A DNA stretch of 58,971 nt from Flavipsychrobacter sp. GTDB lineage: Bacteria; Bacteroidota; Bacteroidia; Chitinophagales; Chitinophagaceae. The stretch lies in the NCBI GenBank assembly GCA_025963465.1, contig JAOQAP010000125.1:1-58971 (forward strand). Direction: 5' to 3'. Made by a program: the position numbers and the translations under genes. Each line of letters starts with the position of its first letter. Within the stretch, counting starts at the first letter, position 1. Below the pieces are notes generated by a model. The model had not been told where the DNA came from, ran no database searches, and was given only the letters and a program-made list of their open reading frames with translations. Positions 13,300 to 22,059 of this stretch are shown here, in pieces.

Positions 13300-14472
13300 T
13301 TAGCGCCCCGAAGTTTTTATTTTACCACTCCCTCCGCATACCTCGCAAGTCTCCAGTTTATGGCCCGTGCCATTGCACAGGTCGCACTCATACACATTGT
13401 TGCTGTAACCCTGTTTCAGGTAGGTGACGGTTTGTGACCCATCGCTGTGCGATTCGCGCTTGATCACCTGGTCGGCCGATCGGTAGATGGTCGTTTTTTG
13501 ATGCCCACGGCCATTGCAGCGCTTGCATATTCCTGCACCTGTTACCTTACCTGTTCCCTTGCACCGCTGGCAGCCCGATATTACAGGTGGTACCCATTCC
13601 ACATAGTTTTTCTCATTATTGTCGTTGGCATAGAGGGCGCCGAAGAAGTTCATCTGCTGGTATACGTTGTTTTTATAGACCACTACCTGCAACACCGGAG
13701 ACGTCATATCTAGATGCCTGTTGACGCCATAAAAGACCTCGTAGGTAGTGTTGCTGTCAGTGGTTTCCACGCCGTTGAAGTAGACACCGTGGTGCTTTTC
13801 TTTGCTGATGAGGTAGATGCTTTCGGCGTCTAGTTTTATGTTATAGAGTGGCTTAACCGGCTCACGGTAGGGTGTTTCAGATATGCGGAGCTCATCGCCT
13901 ATGCGTGATGCGCTGACTGAATTTTCCTTTTTGGCGGCACTGATGATGTCTTTGAAGCATGCGTATTCATTGCCACGGAGATCGGGAATGCCTGTACCGC
14001 TTGCGGGCACTTGTTTCCAGGTGTAAAACGGCTCTTTGCTGAGCCAGAAGGGTGGATATTTGTAGTAGGTTTTTTTCGGGGACGAGAAAAATTTGCCCTC
14101 TCCCTTCATCGTGTAGCGGCGGGAAAGCGAGGTGGGTTCTTTGGTCTTGGTATCTAACTCGAGTATGTAACCATCCCAGCTATCGCCGGACTCCCGTGGT
14201 AGTGTTAGCCACCACTCATCATTGGCGTATCCTTTGAGCTCAGGGTGCTTGAATTCGACTACCTGGCTGTCTTTAAGGTTGTGGAACACCATTTGCTTGT
14301 TGTCAATATCAATGGATACGTAGCCTGTTTCGGGCTTAAGGTAGTCGATAAGCGACGAGTAGGAGCTGTTGGTGCATGTATAGATGAAGTCATAATGCTG
14401 TGCATGACAAGGTTGGCTGGCCAGCGACATCAGGAAAATAATAAAAGCGGTAAACCTGGTAGCATTCTTCAT
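13300..14472 (-). CDS. Exported protein with four DnaJ-type CxxCxGxG motifs
   Basis: I place the start at 14472 because MKNATRFTAFIIFLMSLASQPCHAQ is a good signal peptide; a 15-residue longer version starts at 14517. The first 300 or so mature residues are not recognisable. The C-terminus carries exactly four cysteine motifs: CQRCKGTGK, CKRCNGRGH, CDLCNGTGH and CEVCGGSGK. This is the same number and form as the zinc-binding region of DnaJ, but there is no J domain. Zinc-knuckle motifs outside the cytoplasm are unusual. It is monocistronic with its own terminator. Function unknown. Confidence 0.85.
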   Translation of the reverse strand: MKNATRFTAFIIFLMSLASQPCHAQHYDFIYTCTNSSYSSLIDYLKPETGYVSIDIDNKQMVFHNLKDSQVVEFKHPELKGYANDEWWLTLPRESGDSWDGYILELDTKTKEPTSLSRRYTMKGEGKFFSSPKKTYYKYPPFWLSKEPFYTWKQVPASGTGIPDLRGNEYACFKDIISAAKKENSVSASRIGDELRISETPYREPVKPLYNIKLDAESIYLISKEKHHGVYFNGVETTDSNTTYEVFYGVNRHLDMTSPVLQVVVYKNNVYQQMNFFGALYANDNNEKNYVEWVPPVISGCQRCKGTGKVTGAGICKRCNGRGHQKTTIYRSADQVIKRESHSDGSQTVTYLKQGYSNNVYECDLCNGTGHKLETCEVCGGSGKIKTSGR

Positions 14473-14619
14473 GATATCCGTATATGTTAGCGACAAAGGT
14501 ACCCTGTAGTTGCGCACTAAGGAATCCCTGCTATCCGGTATTTTTCTTTCATCGCCTGCATCCCGAACAGCAAATTAAACCCGTTCTTTGAACCTATTTG
14601 GCGAACTAATGTCAAATAG

Positions 14620-17787: not shown

Positions 17788-18498
17788 TTAGTCTGCTTCA
17801 TCAATCCAGTTCAGTTGGTGCGTAACTGGCACTTTGCCAAATTGAATCTGCCCGGCACCCAGGTTTCTTGTTCTCGGCTTAATTTGCTCAGCAAGAAACA
17901 TAACCCTCAAAGGAGCAGGGAATTCGCCTTTCAGGTTATAGCCCTTACTCTTGTCTAATTTAAACAGGTTGCCTTTCAGTGAAATAGAATTTTGAAATGT
18001 CGCCTCGCCACCCAACTCATTCATTTGGGAATCGGTGAGCTCATATATTATGCCCGTGCAAGTTCTGGCCTCCCTGATAAGGTAATATTCACTGTCAGCC
18101 CTGTACTCCAGCTTATCCCAAAATGCTTTAAGCGCATCGGCAATAGCAAGGTCGGTGGTGATCTCTCTTTTAGGATTGCTGAGCTCAAATATCAGGTCAA
18201 ATGATGAGGTATGTTTTATTGACGCACTGATGCCAAAATTTACCATTCCAAAGATCCTTGCTGCAATACCAATATCAACGGTTATAGTTTCTGTGGTTTT
18301 CCCGGCAGCCTCTTCCCCCGTTTGCGTTTGAACATCCAGCTCACCTACCTGGTATTTTATTTGCTGATCGTTGATACGGAAGATGGTACCTGGTTTTTCG
18401 AGTTGCGTAGGTTTTGAGTAGAACTGCCATCCCGGATCAAGAATATCAGATGGAGCAGTATTCCGGTTCTTTTTCCCTTTAAAAAATGAAAATGCCAT
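17788..18498 (-). CDS. Unknown protein (236 aa), possibly gasdermin-like
   Basis: The third gene of a compact operon. The product has no signal peptide. It starts with a basic, Phe-containing tail (MAFSFFKGKKNR), then LDPGWQFYSKPTQLEKPGTI, a GELD turn, an alternating, strand-rich centre (ITVDIGIAARIFGMVNFGIS; SSFDLIFELSN), a helical part (AIADALKAFWDKL), ADSEYYLIREA, and a final GYNLKGEFPAPLRVMFLAEQ. From memory, this order of segments resembles bacterial gasdermins, but the N-terminal Cys that is lipidated in those proteins is absent. This resemblance is unverified. Otherwise the family is unknown. Only one Cys (in ARTCTG) is present. Confidence 0.75.
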   Translation of the reverse strand: MAFSFFKGKKNRNTAPSDILDPGWQFYSKPTQLEKPGTIFRINDQQIKYQVGELDVQTQTGEEAAGKTTETITVDIGIAARIFGMVNFGISASIKHTSSFDLIFELSNPKREITTDLAIADALKAFWDKLEYRADSEYYLIREARTCTGIIYELTDSQMNELGGEATFQNSISLKGNLFKLDKSKGYNLKGEFPAPLRVMFLAEQIKPRTRNLGAGQIQFGKVPVTHQLNWIDEAD

Positions 18499-18513
18499 GT
18501 TTTTTTTAATTGA

Positions 18514-19851
18514 TTAGGAATTAGTAAGCTTTTTTATTCTCCTGATCGCTTGGTCAATGGATTCAAATTGTACTGATAAAAGCTGGGGGATCCCGCGTTT
18601 TGCATCCTGTTCTTTAATCCAGCCTGTGGAACAACCAACGTAGGCCATTTTTACAGCTGTATCCATGATCATGGAAAGCAAAAAATTCATCTTAGCCATC
18701 TCTGAAAGCCTCCAGTCGATAATATCATTTTCCGTTTCAGGATAGCGCCCGAAAAAAGTTGATCCCCATATCTTTACTTTCGCGAAATAATCCGTTGTTT
18801 CTTTCAAGACCTCACCAATTGCCAAAACACTGCGCAAGAGTATGAACCTGTGCCGCTCGCCAAACAGGGATGCCGCATTGATATATTTTTCGCGGTCCTG
18901 CATCATAATCAAGCCAAGCATAGCGCTATTCGTATTATGAATGCCATCAAATTTTCTATAGAATGTGTTCTGATCTTTATACCAGAAATAGATGCCGGCC
19001 GTAAACAAGCCTTTTACTAGGTGATATTGCAGCAGGTTTCCGTCAAATGGATCTTTTTTAAGCGCTTCTCTGATGTGATAGATCAATATCTTATCAGCGG
19101 TCTTATCAGCGCGCACTTCATCTTTAAACCATTTTTGATTGTTTGCCTCCGCCACACCAAGCCCTTTTTTAAACTCCCGCTCCTTTTTCCTAATACTGCT
19201 GCGGCCATCTTCTGTTTTCGCTAAACCAGGAAGGTCAAAGCCATATTTCTTAAATTCATCGGCATGTGTACACATTTTTACAACAGCATGTTCAATTCTT
19301 TGTTCCAGCACATTATTTTCTGAAAAAAATGTGCCGAAATTCCGTCCATCACATTCGTCTGCCAGATGCCCGATCTCATGAGCGACGAAATAAAAAACGG
19401 TCAAGGTTAAAATGGCGGCAGGATCATCTTCCGAAATGTCCCTGATATACCGGGTATCAAATAAATGCCGCGCCCTATCAACATACCGTTTTGGATCGTC
19501 AGCTATCTCACTGATGCAGCTTGCCAGGTAATCATCGTTTCTGAAGTAAGGAATGTCAAAAACAGACTCTGAAATACTCAATGCATGGATAGCCGCTTCC
19601 AGTTCGGTAATAAACCGCACGTTGGCAATAATTAAACGCTCCTGTAGCAGGGAAACCATATTGTCGGTATAAAACGGAGACGCACCGGTAGCTTTTTTAA
19701 CTTCATCAAAATCAACGATGCAAAAACGTATTCCCATTGTCGCGATTTCAGCTCCCAAATCACGGATCATTTCCAGTATATTGTCCTTTACGCGGATCAA
19801 TACCGGATCTGTTGTTTCAAATTGCAGTAAATAGCCGGAGTCTTCGTTCAT
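18514..19851 (-). CDS. Unknown protein with HEIGH metallopeptidase motif (445 aa)
   Basis: The second gene of the operon, 16 bases after the TPR gene and 15 before the 236-residue gene. A hydrophobic stretch ILTLTVFYFVAHEIGHLADE contains the zinc-protease motif HEIGH at residues 158-162, in the usual form with hydrophobic residues before it. The third metal ligand is not obvious. The rest is mostly helical and charged, with no signal peptide, so it should be cytoplasmic. Possible roles are a protease acting on its operon partner or an inactive relative. Family not recognised. Confidence 0.8.
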   Translation of the reverse strand: MNEDSGYLLQFETTDPVLIRVKDNILEMIRDLGAEIATMGIRFCIVDFDEVKKATGASPFYTDNMVSLLQERLIIANVRFITELEAAIHALSISESVFDIPYFRNDDYLASCISEIADDPKRYVDRARHLFDTRYIRDISEDDPAAILTLTVFYFVAHEIGHLADECDGRNFGTFFSENNVLEQRIEHAVVKMCTHADEFKKYGFDLPGLAKTEDGRSSIRKKEREFKKGLGVAEANNQKWFKDEVRADKTADKILIYHIREALKKDPFDGNLLQYHLVKGLFTAGIYFWYKDQNTFYRKFDGIHNTNSAMLGLIMMQDREKYINAASLFGERHRFILLRSVLAIGEVLKETTDYFAKVKIWGSTFFGRYPETENDIIDWRLSEMAKMNFLLSMIMDTAVKMAYVGCSTGWIKEQDAKRGIPQLLSVQFESIDQAIRRIKKLTNS

Positions 19852-19867
19852 TGTTTAAAATTATTGG

Positions 19868-20599
19868 TCACCATTTAATATGTTCTGCATAAACTGCTTT
19901 TGGGTCTTTATCCGGATGCTGTTTTTTAATCGCGTGCTCCACTACCGGTTGTATAAATGCGATAAGCTCCGGGCTAAGCCGTTCGGTATATTTATTCAGA
20001 GCTACTGCTGCCGCAAAAATACGCTGGTCATTCCCCGGTTCGTATTTGCAGAACTGGAGGTAGGTAATAATCGTTACAAACTCCGTATTCGGGAAAGGGT
20101 GTTTACTTAAATAATCAAAACTATTTTCAAGCAGGCGAATACCTTCTGCAAACATACCGGATTGGCCATAAATAGTTGCGATATTCGTAGATGCGGAAGC
20201 CGCTGAAGAATAATCTTTATGCTGTAGGCCCAGCTCGGTAACTTCTTTAAAAATACGCACCGCTTTTCTGTAATTGCTTAAGCTCATGTGAATATTGCCA
20301 TAAGTGATCAGGTCAGACAGGCGCTTACCTATTTCTGTCCCAGGCATTTTATCAAGTTTTATAGCATGTTCCGAGGCTTCGAGGGCAAATTCAAATAAAT
20401 TCATTGCTACCAGCGTGTCGGCATACCGCTGGTAATAGGTGCCTTTTGCGGTTGCTTCATCCTCTTTTAACCGAAGCATATCAAGGCAATCTCTGAAACA
20501 GGAGCGGGAGTAATCTAATGCTCTTTTTCTCAAAGCATGCTCACCCTCCTTAAATCTGGTGTCAACCTGGGCAAATGTAATCATAAGTAATTCTGGCAT
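19868..20599 (-). CDS. TPR-repeat protein (about 243 aa), first gene of the unknown operon
   Basis: I chose the ATG at 20599 (MPELLMITFAQ); a GTG 30 bases upstream and an ATG at 20584 are alternatives. The product is all-helical with repeated tetratricopeptide-like pairs: FEFALEASEHAIKLD, ITYGNIHMSLSNYRKAVRIF and NIATIYGQSGMFAEGIRLLE. TPRs bind partner proteins or peptides. No signal peptide is present. It leads the operon with the HEIGH protein and the 236-residue protein, so a scaffold or sensor role is likely but inferred. Confidence 0.78.
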   Translation of the reverse strand: MPELLMITFAQVDTRFKEGEHALRKRALDYSRSCFRDCLDMLRLKEDEATAKGTYYQRYADTLVAMNLFEFALEASEHAIKLDKMPGTEIGKRLSDLITYGNIHMSLSNYRKAVRIFKEVTELGLQHKDYSSAASASTNIATIYGQSGMFAEGIRLLENSFDYLSKHPFPNTEFVTIITYLQFCKYEPGNDQRIFAAAVALNKYTERLSPELIAFIQPVVEHAIKKQHPDKDPKAVYAEHIKW

Positions 20600-20794
20600 T
20601 TGGTTTAAAAACGAATATACACCCAACACATACTTTTATTATTTTGAGTATTTTCATCAGATCACCAATTTCCTACATTACTACCTAACCCATAATATAT
20701 AGTTTCAAATATACTATAGTTTTTTTATTTTGCAATAGCCTGCTATTTTTTCGAACACTGTCTTAATAAAAATGGATGTTATCTTTTACATATA

Positions 20795-20940: not shown

Positions 20941-22059
20941 TTAGTTCTGCTTAGCTCTGCTGTTATCATCAATCATTTTTCTTAAAAACTCATTCCAGTT
21001 GCCTTTTTGTACCTTGTATTCTTTTTCAATAAGGTCGTCTAGCGATGTATAGTCCATCATACGTTTCAGTGCGGCCAGGCCATTCCGGTTATAAGCATCA
21101 AGGCATAGCATGCCTGTAATGGTAGTGAAGGGGTTGGTAAAATTATCCATGTAGTAAAAGTCATCACTTAGCCTGTCGAGGTCAATATTCTTGTGCTGCT
21201 GCAGGTAAGTGTTCAGGCGCCTTAAGTGCCAGAACAACTCATGCCCCATACTGCCACCATAGAATACAGCAATCCCCTCCCTCATAGGCGACTGCTGATA
21301 ATGATGATTGAGGTAGATGTGCACTACCTCATGAAAGTAATTCTCTCCCAACCCGCCACAGTAGATAATGTTGTCTGCGTCGTCAGACATGCCGCTGGGT
21401 TTATCGCGGTTGCCCATGGCTACCGTAAAGTCAAAACCCCTGGCATGATCAAGCTCGTCTTTTGTATCGGCAAAGTAGTAGCGGATTTTAATGGGTTTCA
21501 AATCCCAGTCACGTTCCAGTGTACCTATCTGGCGGGCCAGCATTTTCGCTTTTTTTTCATCAAACCTATGATAGGGCGGGTAATGGTAGGTTATATTTCC
21601 TGAAGCGGTAGTATTCCAATCTTTACCGCCTATCCGGAATGGGCTGATAAAACGCAGCAATTTGTTTTCATCCTGCTGAATATAGTGGTTGGTAATAGAC
21701 ATTACCGACACTTTACTGTTTGTATCAACCCATGCGAACATTGTTTTAATATGCACATAGCCGTTTTCGGGGCGGGCATATAAAATATCGGGCTCCCCGA
21801 TCCGGTAAACCGGGCACTCCGGCGTTATCCCATTCACTAACTGGTCCGGCTGCCTGTATTCTTTGCAGTCTTCAGCGCTCCAGTACTTACTATATTCGGG
21901 TATATGACCGGCTGTAAACTCATTTAAATAACTGCGTAAAAAATCAACGGCCTTCACCAGCTCCACGTCTGTAGTGTCTATGGGGTTATTTACGGGTATC
22001 TGGGCGGGGCTGTTAGAAGCTATAAAAACCGCAAAAATACAAGTGTAAAGCTTTTTCAT
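20941..22059 (-). CDS. Secreted gluzincin-like metallopeptidase (372 aa)
   Basis: A signal peptide (MKKLYTCIFAVFIASNSPAQ) is followed by a domain containing the zinc motif HEVVH at residues 243-247. About 13 residues later comes REGIAVFYGGS, whose Glu (residue 261) fits the third ligand of gluzincins. The upstream half is strand-rich and not recognised, with segments like YVHIKTMFAWVDTNSKVSVM. It should act in the periplasm or outside. The gene lies between two tRNA-linked repeats, in an interval possibly acquired. Substrate unknown. Confidence 0.82.
   Translation of the reverse strand: MKKLYTCIFAVFIASNSPAQIPVNNPIDTTDVELVKAVDFLRSYLNEFTAGHIPEYSKYWSAEDCKEYRQPDQLVNGITPECPVYRIGEPDILYARPENGYVHIKTMFAWVDTNSKVSVMSITNHYIQQDENKLLRFISPFRIGGKDWNTTASGNITYHYPPYHRFDEKKAKMLARQIGTLERDWDLKPIKIRYYFADTKDELDHARGFDFTVAMGNRDKPSGMSDDADNIIYCGGLGENYFHEVVHIYLNHHYQQSPMREGIAVFYGGSMGHELFWHLRRLNTYLQQHKNIDLDRLSDDFYYMDNFTNPFTTITGMLCLDAYNRNGLAALKRMMDYTSLDDLIEKEYKVQKGNWNEFLRKMIDDNSRAKQN

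Follow-up and report, generated by a model that had tools for sequence, protein, structure and literature searches.

Three genes on the minus strand of the window (the whole stretch of 58,971 nucleotides analysed here) form an operon that probably encodes a divergent bacterial gasdermin system, in which a pore former would be held by a C-terminal tail and freed by a HEIGH metallopeptidase. Gasdermins form pores and in animals kill infected cells, and they are common to animals, fungi, and bacteria. In the proposed mechanism, a 236-residue protein with the gasdermin fold would be kept inactive by its C-terminal tail of about 30 residues. Once triggered, perhaps by a signal passed through a TPR protein, the metallopeptidase would remove or loosen the tail, and the freed protein would form a pore in the membrane and thereby kill or permeabilise the cell that made it, abortive defence being the most likely purpose. 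In bacterial gasdermins (bGSDMs), a peptide of about 20 residues at the C-terminus maintains the inactive state, and neighbouring proteases cleave the protein, according to the available parts of PMC9612521 and PMC10989679 and likewise PMC9079055. The genes and a candidate promoter were located as follows.

19868 to 20599, minus strand: TPR protein of 243 residues, a possible sensor or adaptor (ATG at 20599, stop at 19868; Pfam TPR_12)
18514 to 19851, minus strand: HEIGH protein of 445 residues, a likely zinc metallopeptidase and the proposed activator (HEIGH at residue 158, EVRAD at residue 245)
17788 to 18498, minus strand: protein of 236 residues with a predicted gasdermin fold (AlphaFold2 and Foldseek); the proposed autoinhibitory tail comprises residues 207-236
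20706 to 20735, minus strand: candidate promoter string of presumed Bacteroidota type, TTG-N19-TAnnTTTG (pattern scan)

The gaps of 16 and 15 bases between the genes, described in the earlier note, were borne out by the coordinates of the ORF listing, in which the TPR gene also had an alternative GTG start at 20629. The string TTG-N19-TAnnTTTG, which we take to be the Bacteroidota promoter consensus, lay upstream of the TPR gene; with a spacer of 19-20, the pattern occurred twice on the minus strand of the window and not on the plus strand. Since the gene order and the gaps fit one transcript, the trio is consistent with a single transcription unit. The whole trio was present in one copy in its own genome, and its G+C content (42.2%, compared with 44.1% for the window) was not unusual. 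No N-terminal hydrophobic stretch was visible by eye in the three proteins, in agreement with the earlier reading that they carry no signal peptides.

Pfam assigned the eight flanking proteins examined to a TonB receptor, HupE/UreJ, a DnaJ-type zinc domain protein, a CHU_C (type IX secretion) protein, PMT, NlpC/P60, and RNase Y, with one protein left without a family, and PADLOC gave no match at E up to 0.1 among the four of these that were searched. A defence island, the setting that the earlier note had raised, was not found among these flanking genes. An insertion site was not demonstrable, as of the window genes between 9962 and 27413 only a 372-residue neighbour was recovered in two stretches of the same genus. 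This neighbour (20941-22059), encoded on the same strand immediately upstream of the operon, also carries an HExxH motif (HEVVH) and has a signal-like start by eye and no Pfam family; its relatives in two other genomes of the genus were 64-67% identical, and it was found in 7 of 35 genomes, its own included. On the other side, at 13300-14517, a 405-residue protein contained a C-terminal DnaJ-type CXXCXGXG region below the cut-off of Pfam. Such a region occurred once more in the same genome and in 1 of 34 other genomes of the genus.

The 236-residue protein had no match in Pfam, and a PDB sequence search with the protein itself or with alignments A1 and A2 returned no gasdermin. The AlphaFold2 model, built from an alignment of 10 sequences, had a pLDDT of 74.7 and a pTM of 0.73. 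When this model was searched against the PDB with Foldseek, the best match was the bacterial gasdermin 7n50 (E 1.8e-9, TM 0.48, rmsd 7.3 Å), gasdermin entries filled ranks 1-15, and all eight matches at E 0.001 or better were bacterial gasdermins. A model of the family member from Pseudoalteromonas (pLDDT 80.9, pTM 0.74) was built from the same ten sequences in another order, and the two models are therefore not independent. Its best match was also 7n50 (E 1.0e-7, TM 0.53, rmsd 5.8 Å), ranks 1-14 were all gasdermin entries, two of them chains of the IpaH7.8-GSDMB complex, and bacterial gasdermins again made up eight of eight matches at E 0.001 or better. The structure prediction and Foldseek run that the earlier note had called for thus upheld the gasdermin-like fold it proposed, with gasdermins as the top matches of two models and weak profile support in other members, and the predicted fold is well supported. 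The absence of an N-terminal cysteine was also confirmed, the only cysteine being at position 147. A palmitoylated N-terminal cysteine is present in the majority of bGSDMs but not in all, as stated in the available part of PMC9612521. Because a minority lack it, this residue is not a strict requirement for a bGSDM.

Sequence comparison suggested a relation between the family and bGSDMs. When 5027 PADLOC models were applied to the eleven family members at E up to 10, the bGSDM model weakly matched four of them in register (L009, E 0.0041; L016, 0.0072; L012, 0.01; L013, 0.022), with no match to the window copy and six others; the sole other match was Cas13a in L015 (E 0.31). By BLASTP within a set of 13 sequences, residues 84-215 of the Pseudoalteromonas member aligned in register with residues 80-213 of L039, a protein that matches the bGSDM model (E 8.6e-4). 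Two proteins matching this model, one of them L039, were fetched from the phylum, from 2 of 395 genomes. Neither the family profile run on them (E 0.065 and 0.46) nor hhalign of the family against them (probability 2.5%) was significant. One of the two matched the Vitiosangium gasdermin chain at 1e-5, and one had no relatives in plasmids or viral contigs. The protein at L040:5462-6163, from another Bacteroidia genome, matched the bGSDM model at E 9.1e-28 and lacked an N-terminal cysteine, and no obvious protease was seen by eye among the adjacent listed ORFs of 150 residues or more.

The TM-scores to 7n50 are modest (0.48 and 0.53), and weaker Foldseek matches included pneumolysin for the window model (E 0.05) and perfringolysin O for the Pseudoalteromonas model (E 0.025), which would also suit a CDC/MACPF or CDC-like (CDCL) toxin instead of a gasdermin. 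CDCLs are structurally similar to bGSDMs according to the portion of PMC11952106 available. It is nevertheless highly improbable that the protein is such a toxin, as only bacterial gasdermins reached E 0.001 in either search and a sequence-only bGSDM model matched four members in register. The toxin identity was rejected since gasdermins outranked the CDC-type matches in both searches.

Homologues of the 236-residue protein were rare. With this protein as query, only its own genome was recovered among 99 relatives, which included 34 other species of its genus, and 3 of 395 genomes of the phylum were recovered, its own included; the 11-sequence profile found 1 of 295 genomes of the class, again its own. 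The plasmid search returned a single record, from Eleftheria terrae, and plasmid searches with three different members as query found Eleftheria only. Viral contigs contained no match to the protein or to alignment A1, and phages none to the Pseudoalteromonas relative. A scan of genome contigs gave nine loci. After removal of repeats, the family comprised 11 sequences, namely the window copy, Eleftheria (L005), Pseudoalteromonas (L009), Nitrospira (L010), and L011-L017, the last seven being labelled Ignavibacteria-type although L015 is titled only “Bacteroidetes bacterium”. L006 and L007 (short forms L003 and L004) coincide in position with L014 and L011 and entered the count a single time, and L018, L019, and L020 are repeats. 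The alignment contained ten invariant columns, among them P36, G37, R41, Y138, I141, R142, and E143. The Eleftheria pair (L005:1-16621) is flanked by non-ribosomal peptide synthetase genes on a plasmid of 784 kb, with an IgaA/UmoB-type gene next to it.

The members fell into two groups by the length of the tail that follows the final conserved strand motif. The tail was 30 residues in the window copy, 26 in Eleftheria, 26 in Pseudoalteromonas, and 36 in Nitrospira, and in the Ignavibacteria-type members L011 to L017 it was 7, 8, 10, 13, 8, 3, and 6 residues, respectively. All four long-tailed members, from three phyla, adjoin a protein with HExxH and a later ExxAD (EVRAD in the window, ELEAD in the other three). 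The Eleftheria gene is followed by a HEIGH protein gene on the same strand; the Pseudoalteromonas gene diverges from a HELGH protein gene about 60-80 bases away, depending on the start codon of the latter; and the Nitrospira gene stands in a same-strand row with genes for a 195-residue protein and a HEAAH protein. The 195-residue protein (L010:1409-1996) had no Pfam match, and its gene, located between the other two, overlaps the HEAAH gene by 4 bases. In the flanks of six of the seven Ignavibacteria-type members, scanned over 4 kb a side or less where contigs end (L011, L016, and L017), no HExxH ORF of 120 residues or more was found. The short-tailed L013 had two HExxH ORFs nearby, one with HELVH on the opposite strand at a distance of 245 bases and one with HEIGH at 2.7 kb. 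By script, HExxH occurred in 6 of 70 flanking ORFs, a count that excludes the Eleftheria HEIGH gene, which is an annotated CDS.

The partners themselves were diverse. The peptidases of Eleftheria and Pseudoalteromonas are homologues of each other (E 5.6e-66), and that of Nitrospira matched the two in the region of the motif only (E 0.007 and 0.024). In PADLOC, the Pseudoalteromonas peptidase matched peptidase_U41 (1.5e-8), capP (3.5e-5), and Lit (9.4e-4), and in Pfam it matched Peptidase_M78 below the cut-off (3.2e-4). This type of peptidase, when sought elsewhere in the genomes of nine relatives, was present in its own genome only.

The association of a long tail with a peptidase neighbour, among 11 sequences, is suggestive and not proof, because the split follows ancestry, and it fits a pore former that would be autoinhibited by its tail and released by the peptidase. 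In the earlier note, homologues occurring singly with housekeeping functions rather than always as a trio were named as evidence that would refute the reading. The pairing with an HExxH protein held for the four long-tailed members; it did not extend to the 7 of 11 that are short-tailed and mostly stand alone, which agrees in part with that refuting pattern, although a housekeeping role was not shown for them either. Some fungal and Trichoplax gasdermins are reported to act without proteolysis. The protein could similarly act at the membrane without proteolytic regulation, alone or with a partner, while the peptidase and TPR genes of the operon serve a different function. The seven short-tailed members, six of them without an HExxH ORF in the scanned flanks, agree with this alternative, as does a window peptidase whose homology to the other three could not be demonstrated, but the occurrence of an HExxH/ExxAD protein beside every long-tailed member in three phyla makes it unlikely. 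Among fused bGSDM-like proteins, some lack a protease in their operon, as reported in the available text of PMC11952106, and lone family members thus have a precedent.

The window peptidase, located 15 bases upstream of the gene for the 236-residue protein, is of the metallo-type by motif, as the earlier note had described. HExxH with a downstream Glu (ExxAD) is taken here to define the gluzincin-type class of zinc metallopeptidases; the HEIGH and EVRAD of the 445-residue protein agree with this class by motif only, and the protein is likely a zinc metallopeptidase. Pfam returned a single chance-level match to GYF (E 0.18), and neither this protein nor the 236-residue protein had a match in PADLOC or NCBIfam at E up to 5. 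Its resemblance to the other three partners was confined to the motif (best E 0.11). Peptidase U49/Lit (PF10463), which we assume to be an HExxH enzyme, was rejected as its identity, with no match at E up to 10 in its own genome and no match to the PADLOC Lit model. Relatives of the window peptidase were found in its own genome only among 395 genomes of the phylum. In 294 genomes of the family, 15 matches were obtained at E up to 0.1, of which that in its own genome alone was below 0.001 and the next was a partial match at 0.005; plasmids and viral contigs contained no relative. The first protein of the operon matched Pfam TPR_12 (E 1.5e-7) and the PADLOC TPR model (E 0.0017). No TPR gene was seen by eye in the ORF lists directly beside other members. 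About 2.2 kb from the member in L012, a protein resembling serine hydrolases ends in TPR-like repeats, as judged by eye.

The starts of several relatives differed from that of the window copy. By eye, a lipobox-like cysteine followed a hydrophobic start at position 19 in the gasdermin-like protein of Eleftheria, 16 in that of Pseudoalteromonas, and 22 in that of Nitrospira. The Eleftheria and Pseudoalteromonas peptidases had similar lipobox-like starts, and the Nitrospira peptidase and the Ignavibacteria-type members had Sec-type starts, also by eye. The Ignavibacteria-type members lie beside ordinary genes, which together with their Sec-type starts would accord with a protein of the envelope, or one that binds lipids, in which a gasdermin-like fold has a structural or housekeeping function and no pore is formed. 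Such a role is decidedly unlikely, as the window copy has no visible signal sequence, is restricted to its own genome among the 99 relatives and to 3 of 395 genomes of the phylum, and is in a tight operon with a peptidase. As an extension of the gasdermin reading, we tentatively suggest, with a substantial chance of being wrong, that the window protein is part of a gasdermin family largely overlooked by current models and including an exported branch. The members from Eleftheria, Pseudoalteromonas, and Nitrospira would be lipoprotein gasdermins accompanied by exported HExxH peptidases, with a lipoprotein anchor in place of the palmitoyl-cysteine and pores formed from the periplasm or within the outer membrane, and the window trio would represent the cytoplasmic equivalent of these pairs, comprising a TPR sensor and a peptidase from a different lineage. 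Export as lipoproteins, if real, would set these members apart from the usual gasdermins. Should the lipoprotein-like members prove to form pores, gasdermins would act on more than the cytoplasmic face, and a direct comparison of two types of lipid anchor on a single fold would become possible.

The proposed system would extend gasdermins to a family whose window copy escapes three family libraries (Pfam, NCBIfam, and PADLOC) and that is tied to HExxH peptidases instead of caspase-like enzymes. The contrast between a long tail with a peptidase and a short tail alone provides a natural test of autoinhibition. Literature titles were surveyed on exported or lipoprotein gasdermins, gasdermins with metalloproteases, metallopeptidases, or tetratricopeptide proteins, structural searches, bGSDMs with U49, and bGSDMs generally, a scope outside which the main primary papers fell (Johnson 2022, 2024; Wein 2025), and none concerned this 236-residue family. 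The available portions of PMC13236601 and PMC10907252 do not mention it. The pairing of a gasdermin with a metallopeptidase is already in print, as the accessible part of PMC9612521 indicates; the family itself and its lipoprotein-like members look new.

Compared with the known bGSDMs (7n50 from Bradyrhizobium, 7n51 from Vitiosangium, and 7n52 from Runella), the window protein is alike in predicted fold, in its size of about 240 residues, in its short C-terminal extension, and in the adjacent protease gene. It differs in lacking the N-terminal cysteine and a match to the PADLOC bGSDM model, the protease here is of the HExxH type, and three relatives have lipoprotein-like starts. The Fig 2 legend of PMC9612521, in the part of the paper available, names Peptidase U49 in a bGSDM operon and Ideonella sp. 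as the first of four operons, although which of the operons in the figure carries U49 is not certain. That operon likewise combines a gasdermin with a metallopeptidase-type partner, whereas the window peptidase has no PF10463 match and the window adds a TPR gene. The HExxH defence proteins Lit, CapP, and PADLOC peptidase_U41 were matched by the Pseudoalteromonas partner, and none of them by the window peptidase. CDCL toxins share a related fold and are pore formers activated by proteolysis, as described in the available part of PMC11952106, but CDC-type matches ranked below gasdermins for both models.
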